From Arcobacteraceae bacterium (lineage in GTDB: Bacteria > Campylobacterota > Campylobacteria > Campylobacterales > Arcobacteraceae): a stretch of 64,000 nucleotides of DNA. Below the pieces are notes generated by a model. That model was given only the letters and a program-made list of their open reading frames with translations, searched no databases and had not been told where the DNA came from. Shown piece by piece: positions 53,164 to 62,968 of this stretch. Numbering within the stretch: the stretch's first letter is position 1; every line of letters begins with the position of its first letter. The position numbers and the translations under genes were made by a program. The stretch covers positions 17,589 to 81,588 of the forward strand of contig JAIOSF010000031.1 of assembly GCA_021107755.1 (NCBI GenBank), in the 5' to 3' direction.

Positions 53164-54132
53164 ATGGAAGAGTTTAAAACACAAATTAAAGAGAGGTTCG
53201 CTTCAGAGATAGATGAACTTGATTTTTCTTTAGATATTGATAGTTTGGAGATGCGATATAACACAATCGTAGAAGAGATTTTTGAAAAGATAAAAATAAA
53301 AAAAGAAAACTACTCTGTCCCTATTTCACAAACTTCTAATAACAATATTTGTAGTAGTGAATTTGATCTTTGTTCAGGGAAATCTAACGAAACACTTATC
53401 AATGATAACACTAAACCAATTAGAGAAAAGGCTCAAGTAAATGAGTCAAGAAGTATACCAAATAATTTTTCTTTAAATTATGAGATGAAGCAGTTTGCTA
53501 AGTCAAAATTTATACAAAATGTTGAAGAAACTTTTGAGAACTTCAAACTATACTATCAAAGCAAAGGTACTGTAAATAGTGACTGGGAAGCAGTTTGGAA
53601 GCGATGGGTACTTAACCAAAACAAATATAAGAACCATCTTATTAAAACTACTATCGATGAGAACCTAGAATTAAAAAATAATTTTTTAAAAACAGCACAA
53701 AGCTATCTTGCTAAAAAAGATATGGAGATAGAATTTATAAAATTTAAAAACCACTATATCTCTAATGGTGACCTCAAAACATCATGGGAAAAAGTATGGG
53801 AAAACTGGTGTATCAACCACAAACAATTTAAACCAAGAGAACAATCACAAAAGTCAAAAGAGAAGCAAGACTACAAATGGGACTTTAGAAAAGCAAAAGA
53901 TGTAAGTGACAGAATCAAAGATTGGCTTGAGTTTGAAAAAGGGATAAATTGGCTTGATGATTTTTACTGGAAAGGTAAAACAATACCAGGTATTGGTTGG
54001 CAAAAAGTGATGCATCCAGATTTTAACAAAGAGGAGATACTTCTTTTTAAAATAGATAGTGTTGATGGAAATTATATGTTACAATATCAAAGTGAAGAGA
54101 TAATAGATGCAGAGGTATTAGAAAATGACTAG
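53164..54132 (+). CDS. hypothetical protein with two DnaT-like DNA-binding repeats
   Basis: FENFKLYYQSKGTVNSDWEAVWKRWVLNQNKYKN and FIKFKNHYISNGDLKTSWEKVWENWCINHKQFK. Confidence 0.7.
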   Translation: MEEFKTQIKERFASEIDELDFSLDIDSLEMRYNTIVEEIFEKIKIKKENYSVPISQTSNNNICSSEFDLCSGKSNETLINDNTKPIREKAQVNESRSIPNNFSLNYEMKQFAKSKFIQNVEETFENFKLYYQSKGTVNSDWEAVWKRWVLNQNKYKNHLIKTTIDENLELKNNFLKTAQSYLAKKDMEIEFIKFKNHYISNGDLKTSWEKVWENWCINHKQFKPREQSQKSKEKQDYKWDFRKAKDVSDRIKDWLEFEKGINWLDDFYWKGKTIPGIGWQKVMHPDFNKEEILLFKIDSVDGNYMLQYQSEEIIDAEVLEND

Positions 54133-54697
54133 AAAACAACAAGAGTTTTATAGAATACTTATAAACCAAATGATGGACTTCAATGAAGACTTCCACAAAG
54201 AGTTCACAATAGCTAGAATAGAACAAATATCAGATGATAATCTCAAGTATCTTTTAGAAGATATCAATACAGACAAAGACAATATAGTAAAGAAAAAAGG
54301 GTATATAACCTACGCTAAGTTCATCTACTACGCAGATAAGATGATAGATAAAAAAATAGAACTCACCATGAAGCCTCAAACTTCAAAAGTAGATGAACTT
54401 TACAATAAAAGAGAATTGCTTTTAAATACTATCCATAATCAAACAAAATCTCTACAAGAGAGAAACGATCTTATAGAAAATCTTAAAAACAAAGTTGTGA
54501 TGTTTAAAAAAGAAGATGGGAAAAATATCTTAGATGAGATTGATTATTTTATCATTGAACAATTTGGATTTTATAACTTTTTTGACGAAAATAAAAATTA
54601 TATGATAAAAGAGGAGATAGAAAGATATCTTAAATCATATATGACAAATCAAATGTTACTAAAACAAAGCGATACAAAAAAACTTATCAATAATTAA
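54125..54697 (+). CDS. hypothetical protein, translationally coupled to the previous gene
   Basis: 8-bp overlap with the preceding CDS; Lys/Glu-rich helical protein. Confidence 0.65.
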   Translation: MTRKQQEFYRILINQMMDFNEDFHKEFTIARIEQISDDNLKYLLEDINTDKDNIVKKKGYITYAKFIYYADKMIDKKIELTMKPQTSKVDELYNKRELLLNTIHNQTKSLQERNDLIENLKNKVVMFKKEDGKNILDEIDYFIIEQFGFYNFFDENKNYMIKEEIERYLKSYMTNQMLLKQSDTKKLINN

Positions 54698-54729: not shown

Positions 54730-54814
54730 GCCGCTGTGGTGGAATGGTAGACACGCTAGATTCAAAATCTGGTAAGCTATGCTTGTACCGGTTCAAGTCC
54801 GGTCAGCGGTACCA
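54730..54814 (+). tRNA. tRNA-Leu (anticodon CAA), CCA encoded
   Basis: Acceptor GCCGCTG/CAGCGGT, anticodon arm CTAGA-TTCAAAA-TCTGG, long variable arm, TPsiC arm ACCGGTTCAAGTCCGGT, ACCA end. Confidence 0.97.
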
Positions 54815-54816
54815 CT
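54803..54816 (+). repeat. attL-like direct repeat (TCAGCGGTACCACT) at tRNA-Leu 3' end
   Basis: 14-bp identity with 62955-62968. Confidence 0.85.
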
Positions 54817-54985
54817 GACCTACATTTAATACAAATACATAAAACTCTATAAATATCCATAAATACTAGCCCTACTCTTAATATTGTTCTATAAAAATAT
54901 ATAAAGTTTAATTTAGATACCATTCATGTAATACCTTTTTTGTTACTTTTTATATAAATTTGGTGTTACCTTTTTTGGAGCGTGC

Positions 54986-56134
54986 ATGAAAGATAAGCTA
55001 ATATCAACAAAATACGAGGGTGTTTATTACAAAGAGTTAAATAAACTATTCAACGGTAAGCCCGACCTATCCTACTATATTATGTATAGAAGTTGTGGAA
55101 AACAGATAAAAAAATCTGTTGGTAAAAAATCTATGAAGATGACAGGAGCTAAAGCTTATCAAAAAAGGCAAGATATCATCTACGAGATAAAACATGGTAT
55201 AAATGACCATAGTTCAAAAGATAAAACATTTATAGAGCTTTTAGATAAGTGGTATGAAGATAAAAAAAACAATTTAAAATCTATACATGAAGATTATAAC
55301 AGACTAAAAAAACACGCAACAATAATACTTCATAAACACATAAGTAATATAAACTCAGCAGATATAAAAACAATATATGATCATATGATAGATAATGGAC
55401 TAAGTGAACAAACATTTAAAAGAGTTTTTTCTATGTATAAAAGAGTTATGAGTCATAGCCTAGCACATGAATACATTAGGCAAGTTCCAAATGTAGTATT
55501 TAAAAAATCTATCAAAGATAATAAAGTAACAGAGATATACACAGATAATATGATAAAAAACTATATAGAAGTAATACAAAACTATCCTGATACAACCATA
55601 GCTAAAATAATCATGCTTATACTCAATACAGGGATGAGACGAAGTGAGCCACCAAAATTAAAATGGTCCAACTATAGCTATGAGAATAGTACTGTCATTA
55701 TAGAAGATGCAAAAAGTGGTCAAAATGAAACTTATTATCTATCAAATAAAGCAAAGGAGATTATAGAATCACAAAGAGGATTTACACGATCGTATATATT
55801 TGAAGATTATCATAGAAATCCTATCAAAGTAGGAAAAATATCTTATCATGCTTCAAGAATGAAGCTTATGGCTGGATTACCTGAGCATTTTAGACCATTA
55901 CACAGTCTAAGACATAGATTTGGTACAGAACTAGCAAAAAGCGGTCTAAATGCCTTTAAAATACAAAAAATGATGACACATAAAGATATTAAAACTACTC
56001 AAAGATATATAGACTTAGCAGATAAAGATATATTAGAAGATTTAAACAATGTGGAGCAGAACTCAAATATTGGGAATATTGATACAAATATTCAATCTAA
56101 AATGATTAAAATAGAAATTAATAACAGTAAATAA
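54986..56134 (+). CDS. int: tyrosine-type integrase with AP2-like arm domain
   Basis: N-terminal TKYEGVYYKELN..., catalytic R (NTGMRRSEPPKLKW), HSLRHRFGTEL, MTHKDIKTTQRYI. Confidence 0.95.
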   Translation: MKDKLISTKYEGVYYKELNKLFNGKPDLSYYIMYRSCGKQIKKSVGKKSMKMTGAKAYQKRQDIIYEIKHGINDHSSKDKTFIELLDKWYEDKKNNLKSIHEDYNRLKKHATIILHKHISNINSADIKTIYDHMIDNGLSEQTFKRVFSMYKRVMSHSLAHEYIRQVPNVVFKKSIKDNKVTEIYTDNMIKNYIEVIQNYPDTTIAKIIMLILNTGMRRSEPPKLKWSNYSYENSTVIIEDAKSGQNETYYLSNKAKEIIESQRGFTRSYIFEDYHRNPIKVGKISYHASRMKLMAGLPEHFRPLHSLRHRFGTELAKSGLNAFKIQKMMTHKDIKTTQRYIDLADKDILEDLNNVEQNSNIGNIDTNIQSKMIKIEINNSK

Positions 56135-56143
56135 TATCTAAAA

Positions 56144-57469
56144 TTAACCTTTCTCTTTTATTAAGACACCCGTTTTAATAAAGTTATTCATTTCTTTATA
56201 TATTTCTAGATTATCATAAACATATCTACTTTTAAATATTTTTTCAAATGTACCATAACAATACTTATATTGCATTTCTAGTTTTATTTTATTTTCATTA
56301 GTAATTTTTAAACGACTTTCCAGTTTTGGATTATTACCTTCGTAGTTTTTTATGTTACAAATTCTATTTATATGGTAATTAAAGTATAATTCTTCTGAGT
56401 AACCCTTATTATACAACGCAAATGCTTCAGAATAAAAAACATTATCTATTCCAATAATTTGATTAAATGGAAAGCTTACTTGAGAGATAGAGTTAAAGTA
56501 GTCATATTGGAATGTACCATTTGGGATTTTACTTAAATTATATTCAATATGTGGGATATCAACAACAAAATGATTTAATACAAAATTAATTGTAAATATA
56601 GATAAAGAATATAAAAAATTTGAATCTTTATTTTTCTCAATCCATTCTAAACAATTATCTAAAGCTTGTATATAAATTCTTGCATTTAATTCATTAGAAT
56701 ATAGTATAGCCTCTAGAATTTCATCTTTATACTCTTCTAAAACACTATATTTATTATTACTTTTTAATATTGAGTCAAATAGGTCTTCCTGGGATGGTTG
56801 AAAATAAAAAAATTTACTAATTGTCTTTTCTTTTACTGATTTAAAAACTTTTGCTTCTTCATTTTCAAATACATCATCATTTAATATAATGACAACAATA
56901 CATTTAAGTTCATAAGCTATTTGGTATATAAAACCAAATAAATCATTTAAATCAATATCCTTAGATTTTCTTTCAAAATCATCAATACATATTAATCCAC
57001 CATCTGTTAAATTATTAGTACCTTGAAAATTAATTTTTGATTCTTTTGATAAATCAATTATATCCCCTATTTCTTTAACTCTTGAATCAGCAAATAAAGA
57101 CAATGTATTTTTTAATGTATCAGTGCCAAATACAGAAACTATCGGAGAATATACATCAATGCCAAGCATCTGTACAACATTAGTTAAAGTTCCTGACTCT
57201 TTACTTAAATTTTTAAATGACTGAAATAGTATCTCTTGCTTTATTGTTTCAATATTAGTTTTTCCGTATAAACTTATATACACATATGATTTTGCTCTAC
57301 TATTTAAATCTTCTCGTAGAGGTGTCTCTATTTCATTTTGCCAAAAGTGTGTTTTCCCTGAACCCCACGCTCCTGATAACATAACTATTTTTCCATTGTT
57401 GTTAGGATCTGTTAAAAATGCTTTATCGGAATCTATTAAATACTGCCTGAGAGTGGCTAAGTTTGACAT
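56144..57469 (-). CDS. KAP-family-like P-loop NTPase (candidate defence cargo)
   Basis: Walker A MLSGAWGSGKTHFW, Walker B GGLICIDDFERKS, followed by a long divergent helical C-terminus; transcribed opposite to the rest of the element. Confidence 0.8.
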   Translation of the reverse strand: MSNLATLRQYLIDSDKAFLTDPNNNGKIVMLSGAWGSGKTHFWQNEIETPLREDLNSRAKSYVYISLYGKTNIETIKQEILFQSFKNLSKESGTLTNVVQMLGIDVYSPIVSVFGTDTLKNTLSLFADSRVKEIGDIIDLSKESKINFQGTNNLTDGGLICIDDFERKSKDIDLNDLFGFIYQIAYELKCIVVIILNDDVFENEEAKVFKSVKEKTISKFFYFQPSQEDLFDSILKSNNKYSVLEEYKDEILEAILYSNELNARIYIQALDNCLEWIEKNKDSNFLYSLSIFTINFVLNHFVVDIPHIEYNLSKIPNGTFQYDYFNSISQVSFPFNQIIGIDNVFYSEAFALYNKGYSEELYFNYHINRICNIKNYEGNNPKLESRLKITNENKIKLEMQYKYCYGTFEKIFKSRYVYDNLEIYKEMNNFIKTGVLIKEKG

Positions 57470-57540
57470 GACAATATCCCTTATATGATTAATTTTTAAT
57501 ATTATACTATTTTTAAATTTCTAATAGATTATATTATGCT

Positions 57541-57620
57541 GTCCGCTGTGCAGTTTCGCTGTTGCTGTTCGCTGTGTAGTTTGCTGTTTATAGTGCTTTT
57601 TTGCTGTTGCGGTTACAATA
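57541..57620. repeat. GCTGT-rich imperfect tandem repeats
   Basis: CGCTGTGCAGTTTCGCTGTTGCTGTT followed 26 bp later by CGCTGTGTAGTTTGCTGTTTATAG, then TTTGCTGTTGCGGTT. Confidence 0.7.
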
Positions 57621-57858
57621 AAGCCCATAAATAGGCACTTTGTACAACTGCGGTATATTAGTGCTACTATTATATTACTGCAACTGTATTCAATAGTATT
57701 TTAAATTTATTATATTTAAAAGTTTAATATACCAACTGTATGCATAAACGAATATTTTATACAAATCTACCAAATAAGTACCCTACTCTATAAAATAAAG
57801 TTTAGAATCAAAAATAATCAAATACTAATCAACCAAAAAGCTTCATTTTTATATCTTA

Positions 57859-58148
57859 ATTAAGACAAAACATTCCAAATTAAGACAGATTAAGACACTT
57901 TGTCTTAATTTGAAAATACCCAAAGGGGAGCATATATAAAAATATAGATAGATAGGTGTCTTAATGTCTTAAATATATAAATAATATTCTTTTTTTACTT
58001 TATATACTAGCCTTATGACTATTCCTAAATTAAGACAAGATTAAGACAGATTAAGACAAATGTCTTAATTAAGAGCATTTTTTAAACATTTTTCTTCTAT
58101 ATAGCTTAAGTTTATAGTTTTAAAAAGTGAGATTAAGACATTAAGACA
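57859..58148. repeat. iteron-like cluster: about 12 copies of ATTAAGACA in both orientations
   Basis: + copies at 57859, 57879, 57889, 58029, 58040, 58050, 58132, 58140; - copies (TGTCTTAAT) at 57901, 57957, 57965 (last base differs), 58061. Confidence 0.93.
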
Positions 58149-58296
58149 CATAGCTCCATACAGACAAATAAGAAAGTGGTATATACATAAACAATAAACA
58201 TACAAATATAATATATTTATTAGTTATGACTTAAATGACAATCTAATATGTAATTTGATATGATTCAGTTTAAATAGTTACAAATAAGGTGTTTAA

Positions 58297-59037
58297 ATGA
58301 TAAAATACATATATGATGAAGATGGTAATAAAACTGATGTACAAATACCTCTAATGTTATGGGAAAAACTTAAAATTGATTCTATTAATAGTCATTTCGA
58401 TGAAGAATTTACTGAAATTAATCAAGAAGATGATTTTTACCATACTGATTATTTACTTCCTCACTATATTGATATATTAGCTATATTACTTCATGATAAT
58501 GGTAAAAATACAAAAGATGCATATGAAAATTATTTTAATTACTATGATACATTATCTGCATACGATATAGAACTATTATATATATTTAGAGGTGGTGTAT
58601 TTTTTAACCCTACTAATTCTTTTGAAGAACACTCAAAAATTTTATACAATACTTTTACATTAACGACACAAAGAAATCAAAAAATAACGGAAAAAGAATT
58701 TAATGATATTGTTACTGAAAGTCATCGAAGAAATGAGATATCATTTTTACAATACTTTAAAATAAACTTCAAAATAAATAGAAAAGTTAATGTTACTAGA
58801 TTAAATAGAAAAACAGAAAGAGATAGACTATTTATATTTGATATGTTACATTCAACTTATATTCTAGAAAGTATTGCTATTGCAAAAAATTTAGATAAAA
58901 CAAAAAAAAGTATTACGCTACTTAAAAAAGAACTTTTAAATGCTCTAGCTGATTTTTTTTATAATGGTAATAAAGCTCAAATATATAGAGCTCAAAAAGA
59001 AGTAATAAAAAGAATTGATATAATTAATACTCATTAA
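58297..59037 (+). CDS. hypothetical element protein
   Basis: 246-aa ORF directly downstream of the iteron cluster; N-terminus YIYDEDGNKTDVQIPLMLWEKL is antitoxin-like. Confidence 0.75.
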   Translation: MIKYIYDEDGNKTDVQIPLMLWEKLKIDSINSHFDEEFTEINQEDDFYHTDYLLPHYIDILAILLHDNGKNTKDAYENYFNYYDTLSAYDIELLYIFRGGVFFNPTNSFEEHSKILYNTFTLTTQRNQKITEKEFNDIVTESHRRNEISFLQYFKINFKINRKVNVTRLNRKTERDRLFIFDMLHSTYILESIAIAKNLDKTKKSITLLKKELLNALADFFYNGNKAQIYRAQKEVIKRIDIINTH

Positions 59038-59166
59038 TCTAAATACAATTAAACCATCAAACGGAACAAATAGTACAATTTAATATATTATTATGTATCT
59101 ATTTAAGCTTAATAAAAGTTAATTTAGTACATAATTCCTTAATAAAATACATTTAAGGATATTAAA

Positions 59167-59370
59167 ATGAAACAAATTGAAGACTTCATTACAATTGAAG
59201 AGACAAGTCAACTAACAGGTTTAACTCCAAAATCACTATCAAACTATCGTTCTAGAAAAGTAAAGTTTCCATTTTACAAAATGGGTGGGCAAATTTGGTA
59301 CAAAAAATCTGAAATACTAGAAATCATAAATAATAGTAGAGTATCTGTATCTACAGAGGTGCAATCATGA
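59167..59370 (+). CDS. AlpA/excisionase-like helix-turn-helix protein
   Basis: FITIEETSQLTGLTPKSLSNYRSRKVKFPFYKMGGQIWYKKSEILEII. Confidence 0.85.
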   Translation: MKQIEDFITIEETSQLTGLTPKSLSNYRSRKVKFPFYKMGGQIWYKKSEILEIINNSRVSVSTEVQS

Positions 59371-59576
59371 TACAAGAATATGAAATAAAAGACTACATCA
59401 CACAAGAGTTGTCTAAAGGACAAACTGTCGAGGTACTAACTGACCATGTCGTAGAACATACCGATATGTTAACTTTCATAGTAACAAAACACAATGGAGA
59501 TAGAATGAACATATCAAGAACTAGAAAAATTGCCTATGTAAAAAACTATATTGAGAATGTACAACAATATGGATAA
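59367..59576 (+). CDS. hypothetical small protein
   Basis: 69-aa ORF overlapping the HTH gene by 4 bp (ATGA coupling). Confidence 0.65.
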   Translation: MIQEYEIKDYITQELSKGQTVEVLTDHVVEHTDMLTFIVTKHNGDRMNISRTRKIAYVKNYIENVQQYG

Positions 59577-59817
59577 TCTATTAAGAGATTTAAAATACTT
59601 CTTACTACACCATTATGAGCAAGGAAAAAGTAAAAAGGTACTTTTAGGGCTACTTAATGAATTAGAAGATGAAAAAAAAGCCATTCTACAAATTCATTTT
59701 AAAAGAATTATAGAAGAAACAAATCAAATCTTAGTAAAACAATTACTTATGAAGTATATCAATGAGATAACCATACAAATTGATAATAAGCGGAAAAAAT
59801 TGAATAGGATAATATAG
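59551..59817 (+). CDS. hypothetical small protein (start may be the ATG at 59569)
   Basis: Overlapping ORF in the same operon; Lys/Leu-rich helical. Confidence 0.55.
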   Translation: MRMYNNMDNLLRDLKYFLLHHYEQGKSKKVLLGLLNELEDEKKAILQIHFKRIIEETNQILVKQLLMKYINEITIQIDNKRKKLNRII

Positions 59818-59845
59818 CTATAAATTTCTCTGTATATAGCTAATA

Positions 59846-59900
59846 CAATCTCATAATTATGGGATTGTGGGGTAATTAATTCTTAAGGGTAATTCTTAAG
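59846..59900. promoter_or_regulatory. hairpin plus direct repeats upstream of replication gene
   Basis: CAATCTCAT-AATT-ATGGGATTG (59846-59867), then GGTAATTAATTCTTAAG / GGTAATTCTTAAG (59871-59900). Confidence 0.5.
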
Positions 59901-60001
59901 TGAGAGGATAAGGGAGAGGAATTGAAACAAAATAAAATTAAAATTGAAGTGTCTAAAAAACACTAATCAATATAAAAAAACTTTAAACAATAGGAATAAC
60001 A

Positions 60002-61750
60002 GTGCAAAATTATAGCATACAAATAGAACAATCAGTATTAGCAACTTTAATTGATAATTATGATAAGTTTGAAAAATATCATACTCAATTAAAACCTGAA
60101 ACATTTTTCTATGAAGCTAACCAAAGTATCTATAGTGCTATGCAAATTCTCTATAAAGATGATAAGCCTATAGATGCAGACTTTATAAGGCAAGAGCTAG
60201 ATAAACAAGGAACTTCTATAGATGATTTTTTAATAGCAGTTATTACAAGTACTCCTACAGCAGTTATTGAGAAATATATTAAACAATTACAAGAAGCACA
60301 TAAAGAAAGAGAAGCTTTATCCGTAACTACTCAATTAAGAGAGGGGAAAATATCTGTAGAGCAACTACAAACAAAACTTTCCAAGATACAAAACTTGTAC
60401 GATCGTGTTGAAAACAATGAACTATCAAATAAAACTATTAACTTAGATAAACTATCTCCATTTTTAAAAGATGTGATCACTGACTTGCATAGTATAAATG
60501 AACATCCTATAAATATGATACTTTCTACTGTCTTAACCTCAATGGGTGGACTTATCGGTGCTAGAGCTAAAGTAACAAATGGAATGTTTGAGGTTTATCC
60601 TGTAATATGGAGTATCATCGTTGCTCCATCCTCATTAGCAACAAAATCTACACTTACAAGATATACCAAAAAATGTATCTTTGGGGAGCTTCAAGATAAC
60701 CTATTTGTAGAATACAGAGGAAAACTTGAAAAATATCAAGAAGAAAAAAAAGCCTATAACAACTTATCAAAAGAAGATAAAAGAAACGAGATAGAGCCTG
60801 AAAAGCCTGAACCACAACTTCTTATATTTCAAAATGATGGTACACCTGAAGCAAAACTCAAATCTTTAGAAGATAATCCCAATGGTGGAGTTGTGTATTA
60901 TGATGAGATGAAAGCAGAACTAGAAAAAACCAACAACGATAAAAGCTATAAAGCATTAAAAACATCTACCTTTGATGGAGATAGATTTCATAAAAGACTT
61001 GTAAATGGTGGTAGTATCATACTTGAGCATCCTATATTATGTGAAAATGGACTTATAACAGAACAATGGCTGTTAGATGTTATTCACAAAGATGATATCG
61101 TGAGTGGATTTATGGCAAGGTTTCTATTTAGCTACAATAAAAAAGAAGATTTTAAACCACTACAAATAAAACCACTTAGTATAAAAGTAGAAAAATATGC
61201 AAAAGTTGGAGAGTTTATAATAGAAATGTTAGAACTTGAATGTAAAGAACCAAATTTATTTAATCTTACTCTTGAAGCTAGAAATTATTACACTAATTGG
61301 TTCAATGACTTGTCAGACACTATCTTTTATACAGAAACAGATGAAGAGATTACATCTAGCTATAGACTTACTACCTATGTTCTAAAATTTGCACTTATTA
61401 GCTATATTTTTGATATGGCATATCAAGAAAATAATATCATCAAAAGTGGTTCAATAGCAATACCACTAAAATACATAAAAGAAGCTATATATCTTTTTGA
61501 GATATTTCGAGATGAAAATGACAAAGTACTTGCATTGTTTCAAAAGAATAATAAACTACATAAAACACTTGATGATATCTCAATGAAACTACAAAATAAG
61601 ATTAGAGCTACTAAAGATAAAAGAATATCAAAAACAAATGCAACTAATAGTATTAGAGGACTAAATGCTAAAAAACTAGATGAATTTATTGAGAAAAACT
61701 TATTTAGAATCGAGCAAATAGATAGAGTGAATTATATCTTTGAATGTTGA
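60002..61750 (+). CDS. replication protein: DnaB N-terminal domain fused to DUF3987-like region
   Basis: SIQIEQSVLATLIDNYDKFEKYHTQLKPETFFYEANQSIYSAMQIL is DnaB_N-like; VIWSIIVAPSSLATKSTLTRYTKK and GGVVYYDEMKAELEKTNNDKSYKALKTSTFDGDRF are DUF3987-like. Confidence 0.82.
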   Translation: MQNYSIQIEQSVLATLIDNYDKFEKYHTQLKPETFFYEANQSIYSAMQILYKDDKPIDADFIRQELDKQGTSIDDFLIAVITSTPTAVIEKYIKQLQEAHKEREALSVTTQLREGKISVEQLQTKLSKIQNLYDRVENNELSNKTINLDKLSPFLKDVITDLHSINEHPINMILSTVLTSMGGLIGARAKVTNGMFEVYPVIWSIIVAPSSLATKSTLTRYTKKCIFGELQDNLFVEYRGKLEKYQEEKKAYNNLSKEDKRNEIEPEKPEPQLLIFQNDGTPEAKLKSLEDNPNGGVVYYDEMKAELEKTNNDKSYKALKTSTFDGDRFHKRLVNGGSIILEHPILCENGLITEQWLLDVIHKDDIVSGFMARFLFSYNKKEDFKPLQIKPLSIKVEKYAKVGEFIIEMLELECKEPNLFNLTLEARNYYTNWFNDLSDTIFYTETDEEITSSYRLTTYVLKFALISYIFDMAYQENNIIKSGSIAIPLKYIKEAIYLFEIFRDENDKVLALFQKNNKLHKTLDDISMKLQNKIRATKDKRISKTNATNSIRGLNAKKLDEFIEKNLFRIEQIDRVNYIFEC

Positions 61751-61761
61751 AAGGAGATACC

Positions 61762-62673
61762 ATGACACCACAAGTAAAAAAACTACTAGTACAATATGAA
61801 CGATATAGCTATTTTTTAGAGAAATACAATACATACTTAGTATTAAAAGGTTATTGTAAAAATACTACCAGTGCTTATAAGCAAGAAGCTAAAAAGTTTT
61901 TTATATTTATGGATAAAGATCTTATTGATAGAGATATGATTATGAAGTTTGTTATGCAGCAACCTACTAAAGAAGCATCAACTAAAAATAGAATTATCTC
62001 TTGTACCAATAATATCATAGAGTTTGCAGAAAGTATCAATAAATTTGATGATACAAACAATGGCTTTAAACTATGTTCGGTAAGACAACATAGAAAACTA
62101 CCAAAAATACTATCCTATGAAGATATATCTGTCGTATTAGATACTCTAAAGAATAATAGAAAAGATTGGATGAGCTATAGGGATTATGCACTATTTATAT
62201 TTTTATACGCAACAGGTGTGAGAGTAAGTGAATGTATAGAACTAACAACAGCTGATTTAATAGAAGATAAGCTCATAAAAGTAAATAATGGTAAAGGGAG
62301 TAAGGATAGAATAGTTCCTATAGCTATGAAAGCAGTAGAAGCACTAAAAGAATATATAGAACTTTGTCCCTTTGATACATCAAAAAACTTGTGGGTTAAC
62401 TACAGGGGTAAAAAGATAAGTAGAATTTCTATATTTAAAATCACTAAACAATGTGCAAATATAAGCCCTCATAAACTAAGACATAGCTATGCAACACATA
62501 TGTATAACAATGGAATGGATTTAATGGTTCTTAGTCAATTATTAGGTCATGAGAATATAGAAACAACAGAGATATATCTTCATGTAGATAATAAGCAATT
62601 AAAAGAATGTATAGCTAAACACCACCCTATTAATAATTTAACTCAAGAGCAAATACAATCTATATTATGTTAA
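61762..62673 (+). CDS. second tyrosine recombinase (XerC/D-like)
   Basis: ATG at 61762 follows AAAGGAG; YATGVRVSECIELT, SPHKLRHSYATHMY, LLGHENIETTEIYLHV. Confidence 0.93.
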   Translation: MTPQVKKLLVQYERYSYFLEKYNTYLVLKGYCKNTTSAYKQEAKKFFIFMDKDLIDRDMIMKFVMQQPTKEASTKNRIISCTNNIIEFAESINKFDDTNNGFKLCSVRQHRKLPKILSYEDISVVLDTLKNNRKDWMSYRDYALFIFLYATGVRVSECIELTTADLIEDKLIKVNNGKGSKDRIVPIAMKAVEALKEYIELCPFDTSKNLWVNYRGKKISRISIFKITKQCANISPHKLRHSYATHMYNNGMDLMVLSQLLGHENIETTEIYLHVDNKQLKECIAKHHPINNLTQEQIQSILC

Positions 62674-62954
62674 CCATTAAACTATTCAAAGAAAAAAGAA
62701 CTGCCGTTGTGTCACAATAAAAAATTAACTAGTGCGTCACAATAAAAAAAGAGCAAGACTCACGCCCTACTCTTCCAATACTTCCAACCACGAAAGCCCT
62801 ATATATAAGTACTAAAATTATATATATTGTTAACTTAATAATTGGTTAACATAATATAGAATCATCAATATAAATGATACCTATTTGTTACCTTTTCAAA
62901 TTATATATAAAATAAATCCTTTTATTAAAGGTATAATGTGGATATTAGAACCGC

Positions 62955-62968
62955 TCAGCGGTACCACT
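62955..62968 (+). repeat. attR-like direct repeat (TCAGCGGTACCACT)
   Basis: Identical to the tRNA-Leu 3' end copy at 54803-54816. Confidence 0.85.

Follow-up and report, generated by a model that had tools for sequence, protein, structure and literature searches.

Six tRNA-integrated elements with a second, Xer-type recombinase in Arcobacteraceae and Sulfurimonas: a candidate PICMI-like satellite family

What kind of element has been inserted at a tRNA-Leu gene of an Arcobacteraceae bacterium? The question is raised by a stretch of 64,000 nucleotides of contig JAIOSF010000031.1 (assembly GCA_021107755.1), here called the window, which runs to where its contig stops (position 81588 of C9). The original prediction described a compact integrative element of a family possibly undescribed in this lineage, and left open whether it is an integrative and mobilizable element (IME) or a phage satellite. 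Its view of a compact, undescribed integrative family is supported by six related elements, one empty target, and a literature search in which none of the papers covered names both 'phage satellite' and 'Campylobacterota'. With moderate confidence, we interpret the element as a member of a marine Campylobacterota family of minimal helper-dependent phage satellites, similar to the phage-inducible chromosomal minimalist islands (PICMI) and equipped with its own multimer-resolution enzyme.

The element is delimited by the following features:
54730..54814, forward strand: tRNA-Leu (CAA), the integration target, identified by ARAGORN
54799..54816, forward strand: attL, the 3' end of the tRNA, 18 bp with one mismatch to attR
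62951..62968, forward strand: attR, an 18-bp copy of the tRNA 3' end

The predicted 14-bp att repeat was confirmed. Exact copies of TCAGCGGTACCACT occupy positions 54803-54816 and 62955-62968 and, if one mismatch is allowed, lengthen to 18 bp (54799-54816 and 62951-62968); the 14-mer has exactly two copies in the genome of 2,621,996 bp, both at the element ends. The element is 8,152 bp long, and its G+C content is 26.6%, compared with 29.7% in the window up to the tRNA. Eight proteins of the element were analyzed:
54986..56134, forward strand: Int, a 382-amino-acid tyrosine integrase (PF00589, 1.9e-25), 37-59% identical to the Ints of five relatives
56144..57469, reverse strand: KAP-family P-loop NTPase, candidate defence cargo (PF07693; PADLOC PDC-S49, 1.1e-24; phrog_4740)
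58297..59037, forward strand: open reading frame (ORF) 246, conserved by profile and pairwise comparison, in the position of PICMI iolg/icg
59167..59370, forward strand: AlpA-like helix-turn-helix (HTH) protein, HTH_17 (PF12728, 5.5e-7; phrog_66, 5.8e-5)
59367..59576, forward strand: ORF69, a small protein with a counterpart in G065/G086 (31%)
59551..59817, forward strand: ORF88, a small protein from the ORF list
60002..61750, forward strand: Rep, 582 amino acids, DnaB N-terminal domain and DUF3987 (Pfam PF00772 and PF13148)
61744..62673, forward strand: Xer2, a XerD-like tyrosine recombinase of 309 amino acids (PF00589; TIGR02225; alignment)

Pfam recovered the integrase beside the tRNA, the KAP-like gene (26.6 bits against a 20-bit cut-off for KAP_NTPase PF07693), the DnaB_N/DUF3987 replication protein and the second recombinase, all named in the original prediction; its AlpA-like gene does encode an HTH protein, but the Pfam family is the generic HTH_17.

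Relatives were sought in samples with one genome per species, the class and order samples being partial. The Rep search returned two full-length relatives (58% and 54%) among 104 Arcobacteraceae genomes, and two strong matches in another family (53% and 51%) plus a distant one (31%) in an order-wide sample of 399 genomes. The ORF246 profile matches 3 of the 104 family genomes and, in the class sample, two genomes other than that of the window. With five relatives, the window element makes a set of six, hosted by Arcobacteraceae and Sulfurimonas. The hosts found by scanning genome contigs include a Halarcobacter metagenome-assembled genome (MAG; G065), the Arcobacter MAGs NORP36 (G086) and NORP14 (L046), and Sulfurimonas indica NW8N (G174); G344 belongs to the same genus as S. 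indica. Two candidates were rejected: the distant Rep match (L042), a DUF3987 gene after an HTH gene with a tRNA-Ser farther on, which is no closer match to the family, and a weak class match to ORF246 (G404/L081, 6.5e-4), where the genes are ordinary chromosomal ones.

All six elements share the order tRNA, Int, ORF246 homolog, AlpA-like HTH, one or more small ORFs, and Rep, the latter always with a DnaB N-terminal domain joined to DUF3987. Every element also contains a second tyrosine recombinase, which follows Rep in the window, G065, and G086 but AlpA in S. indica, G344, and NORP14. The elements are 7.5-9.4 kb long and occupy tRNA-Leu, -Thr, and -Ser genes. Structural models added little: the AlphaFold model of ORF246 (predicted local distance difference test, pLDDT, 73.6) had no match in the PDB (best E 0.3), and the predicted Rep fold was too poor for use (pLDDT 58.6).

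Comparison of the six elements also revealed recurrent motifs at their ends, in the window as follows:
54941..54973, forward strand: left arm-type sites TGTTACTTTT (54941) and TGTTACCTTT (54964), similarly spaced from att across the six elements
62886..62895, forward strand: right arm-type site TGTTACCTTT, from the motif comparison of six elements

Sites resembling TGTTACCTTT with at most one mismatch are present at both ends of each of the six elements, two or three on the left, ~105-160 bp past the tRNA, and one or two on the right near attR; four of the six have one or two interior copies as well. With 4 or 5 sites in all, each element is inside the shuffle range (1-2 expected, maximum 4-6), so the case rests on recurring position and not on number. 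These sites look like putative arm sites of the integrase or an excision factor. The window element combines att repeats, Int beside attL, and arm-type sites at both ends, as a site-specific tyrosine-integrase element does, and the matching arm-type sites contradict an origin of the att repeats and the integrase in unrelated events. The G065 element, 7.5 kb long, is inserted at a tRNA-Thr position that is uninterrupted in its congener G055, where the sequence beside the target runs through attB into an intact tRNA-Thr (874 bp at 81%), as expected for the empty site. For the tRNA-Leu locus of the window itself, a search for an empty site was negative; homologs of ORF190 in G073/G074 have no adjoining tRNA. 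Integration into tRNA genes and the existence of the family are strongly supported by sequence comparison, and the ~8.15-kb DNA is probably a mobile element able to leave and enter a tRNA gene.

The gene families and their order resemble those of a known satellite. In Vibrio, PICMI115 is excised by Int, AlpA, and the product of a gene overlapping int; prim, modelled as DUF3987 or DUF5906, helps to replicate it, and its concatemers are packaged by a virulent phage (PMC10803314). The PICMI model families are PF00589 for int, PF12728/PF05930 for alpA, and PF13148/PF19263 for prim, and the iolg/icg gene overlaps or is contiguous with int in 21 + 4 of 35 subfamilies (PMC10803314). In the window element and its relatives, PF00589, PF12728, and PF13148 proteins are co-located and follow the PICMI order: int, a gene that in the relatives overlaps or adjoins int, alpA, a small gene, and the DUF3987 prim. 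Three of the relatives have an ORF246 counterpart overlapping int and two have one contiguous with int, and in the window 2.16 kb separates ORF246 from int. Small size, defence cargo, and the lack of packaging and capsid genes are also shared. By contrast, the second Xer-type recombinase in all six elements and the repeat cluster at a candidate origin set them apart from PICMI, and Rep has a DnaB N-terminal domain, which lies outside the comparison with prim, made at the family level. A satellite lifestyle is likely by analogy.

P4-like satellites and phage-inducible chromosomal islands carry an integrase, an AlpA-like regulator, and a replication protein. The element shares these, but terS, capsid-size, and packaging-redirection families were not recognised in it: Pfam, PHROGs, and NCBIfam scans returned no terS, psu, sid, or ppi family. 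Nor did the eight proteins, scanned against Pfam, PADLOC, PHROGs, and NCBIfam, contain terminase, capsid, relaxase, or type IV secretion system families, in agreement with the original prediction, which had recognised no terminase, capsid, relaxase, or transfer genes. The lack of visible packaging genes would also suit an IME moved by a conjugative helper via an oriT that went unrecognised, in which Rep would control copy number after excision and Xer would resolve plasmid-like dimers; integration at a tRNA, a replication module, a repeat cluster, and a Xer resolvase are typical of plasmid-like elements, too. However, a relaxase family is found in 0 of the 8 proteins (no relaxase or MOB protein, expected of an IME, up to E 0.1), PLSDB plasmids contain no full-length relative of Rep, and the gene order is that of PICMI, a proven satellite. 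We therefore regard an IME as unlikely: of the two options left by the original prediction, the architecture favours the PICMI-like satellite, and on the IME side the relaxase was not recognised.

For replication, the window offers one candidate origin:
57859..58148, no strand assigned: repeat cluster (TTAAGACA), candidate replication origin, the same octamer being clustered in G065 and G086

The motif ATTAAGACA has 12 copies in the window, 11 of them inside this 290-bp cluster, and TTATAC-type repeats are clustered in S. indica, G344, and NORP14. The best 400-bp 9-mer count was compared with the maximum of 20 shuffles; it is higher in the window (10 versus 3, which bears out the predicted iteron cluster), G086 (6 versus 3), S. 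indica (5 versus 3), and NORP14 (5 versus 3). With 8-mers, G065 (6 versus 4) and G344 (5 versus 3) also exceed their shuffles. As a candidate origin, the cluster has its best support in the window.

What is new here is the second recombinase, which is of the Xer type, XerD-like in four elements (window, S. indica, G344, NORP14) and XerH in two (G065, G086). In the alignment, Xer2 conserves the catalytic R/K/H/R/H/Y residues; it scores 210 bits against TIGR02225, under that model's own cut-off, and a XerD-like protein of the host genome is 43% identical to it. The proteins of S. indica, G344, and NORP14 are labelled XerD-like because they are 36-37% identical to that of the window, not on the basis of scans of their own. 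The G065 and G086 proteins both belong to PF18644 and are 23-26% identical to the window copy, and the G065 protein matches Helicobacter pylori XerH (5jjv, 349 residues, 7.9e-63). This grouping is discordant with those of Int (window versus G065/G086, 57-59%; versus the other three, 37-40%) and Rep (53-57% and 45-48%, respectively), which suggests replacement of the Xer module in the window lineage. A Sulfurovum protein similar to Xer2 (H37) sits among unrelated genes and was rejected as a family member. Most simply, the Xer protein would be a resolvase for products of replication or for concatemers.

Two dif-like sites stand at and just past the 3' end of xer2:
62648..62676, forward strand: dif-like site 1, sharing TATATTATGTTAACCA with the host dif and overlapping the xer2 stop codon
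62843..62871, reverse strand: dif-like site 2, an inverted copy of site 1, with the 18-bp exact inverted repeat TCTATATTATGTTAACCA

This pair is an addition to the features originally listed (62648-62871). The inverted copies of TCTATATTATGTTAACCA occupy 62659-62676 and 62843-62860; an exact inverted pair of at least 18 bp within 250 bp arose in 1 of 200 shuffles. The host has a classical dif-like sequence, intergenic, at C30:4477 of its genome (G000, L089), and the exact 15-mer TATATTATGTTAACC recurs elsewhere in the genome solely there, with one more place at one mismatch. Each copy is identical to the host dif in 20 of 28 bp. The XerC arm matches at just 4/11, so the copies are half-sites plus the centre, and the copied arm is the XerD arm. 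The pair was noticed through position-weight scans for dif and difH (two motifs on six elements, i.e., twelve scans, with 20 shuffles each), where the window match of 17.05 barely exceeds the shuffle maximum of 16.72; stronger evidence than this score comes from the exact recurrence and from the count over the whole genome. The only other match above its shuffles is the dif scan of G086 (15.02 versus 14.95).

Between the two sites, at 62708-62748, there are two near-identical copies, TGTGTCACAATAAAAA and TGCGTCACAATAAAAA. The XerH-bearing elements have two conserved 11-6-11 hairpins, before an 80-aa ORF and before Rep (L034 14673-15006, L035 8221-8563), and hairpins such as GAGGTGTCGGA-6-TCCGACAACAC lie directly 3' of rep, with no T-run, in three tRNA-Ser elements (L040 ~10570, L041 ~10469, L046 ~6567). 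The 11-6-11 palindromes common to G065 and G086 (CATCTTACTAA-6-TTAGTAAGATG and another) were rejected as a XerH site, being between small ORFs with no link to XerH.

Among Campylobacterota, Arcobacter butzleri is reported to have XerH/difH and Sulfurimonas denitrificans XerCD/dif (PMC2731167), whereas the Arcobacteraceae genome of the window has a classical dif-like site. The elements resemble these dimer-resolution systems in having XerH or a XerD-like protein and, in the window, XerD-arm copies of the host dif. They differ in that the recombinase is element-borne, beside the element's own Int, and that the sites are inverted half-sites, not one full dif. That Xer type tracks the dif type of the host is no more than a lead. 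Tentatively, one may imagine a satellite family with dedicated Xer multimer resolution of the type matching the host dif (XerH or XerD-like), turning a packaged concatemer into a single integrated copy, with the window resolution site derived from the host dif.

Two inverted dif-like sequences close to the element end are also a property of integrative mobile elements exploiting Xer (IMEX) of the CTXphi type (PMC5357621), which integrate at the host dif through the XerCD of the host. The module might then be a second integration route, the half-sites folding like CTXphi attP1/attP2 and Xer inserting the element at the host dif. The window sites are ~165 bp apart (90 nt in CTXphi), and single-stranded folding of the region beats all shuffles (z -3.0 and -3.5, 18-bp stem). 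Yet the CTXphi sites match the XerC side and those of the window the XerD side, the element sits at a tRNA beside its own Int and not at dif, and the other five elements showed no such sites. Within the 3 kb examined at the host dif (C30:4477), there is no such element. We consider this route highly improbable.

The cargo differs among elements and consists mostly of defence or toxin–antitoxin candidates:
window: KAP NTPase, PADLOC PDC-S49
G065: D12 methyltransferase
G086: NYN nuclease, HEC-09
S. indica and G344: HEPN-MNT, PDC-S09
G344 and NORP14: YafQ-type toxin
NORP14: DUF3800, PDC-M04A

Each of the six elements encodes one or more proteins that match defence or methyltransferase models of PADLOC-DB, the PDC and HEC names denoting candidate and not proven systems; one NORP14 protein had no match in the cargo scans. 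Outside the element, upstream of the tRNA, two genes (53164-54697) separate the tRNA from trpC. The first matches phrog_1408, a replication initiation protein (5e-7), and two congeners have a homologous pair, one of them after trpC.

Several observations weigh against the PICMI-like satellite. Complete PICMIs are found only in Vibrio/Vibrionaceae, at fis (PMC10803314), whereas the elements described here use tRNA-Leu, -Thr, or -Ser in Arcobacteraceae and Sulfurimonas. Hence, with neither the fis site nor the host range matched, we call them PICMI-like, not PICMI, and the likeness is assessed at the level of gene families and order. The complete genomes surveyed for PICMI-like elements contain 135 of them, 67 in Vibrionaceae (PMC10803314), and the remainder may include Campylobacterota. 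In the window, the KAP cargo and the repeat cluster (56144-58297) lie between int and ORF246, while the relatives have cargo and repeats on the attR side. The 9-mer clusters of G065 (4 versus 4) and G344 (3 versus 3) are no denser than shuffles. The difH scans of the six elements yielded nothing above shuffles, the XerH-bearing members yielded no Xer site, and the dif-like pair of the window is inverted, matches in one arm only, and had no counterpart that was seen in the other five. No helper phage was found; the portal family PF04860 is absent from the host genome, where other phage families were not sought.

Comparison of element DNA with phages gave no match, and IMG/VR scans revealed no close relatives of Rep, Int, or ORF246. 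The latter result, together with the patchy distribution (3 of 104 family genomes), would fit a cryptic plasmid in integrated form, or a defence island, that has no dedicated helper and spreads mainly by generalised transduction or natural transformation; such islands are known (compare the genomic islands carried by jumbo phages, PMC12595487). But the frames are intact, and the end sites and the replication module are conserved in two bacterial families, which argues for selection on excision and replication. We consider such a plasmid or island quite unlikely.

For the PICMI-like satellite, we infer the following cycle of excision, helper-dependent replication, defence, and multimer resolution. 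Int would insert the element into the tRNA 3' end. Upon infection by a helper phage, the AlpA-like protein, perhaps with ORF246, would act as an excision factor with Int at the TGTTACCTTT arm-type sites. Rep would replicate the excised circle from the repeat cluster, and might draw in DnaG or helicase components of the host through its DnaB_N domain. The element would be carried as a concatemer in helper particles, Xer2 and the dif-like sites would cut multimers down to monomers, and the cargo, e.g., the KAP NTPase, would protect the host from other phages.

If this interpretation is true, PICMI-like minimal satellites extend to Campylobacterota and to tRNA sites. The way of integration or single-copy upkeep has been stated as open for PICMI (PMC10803314), and an element-borne Xer with dif-like sites would provide a testable answer to the single-copy question. 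Further members of the family could be sought by means of the arm-type sites and of the cargo slot that recurs among the elements.

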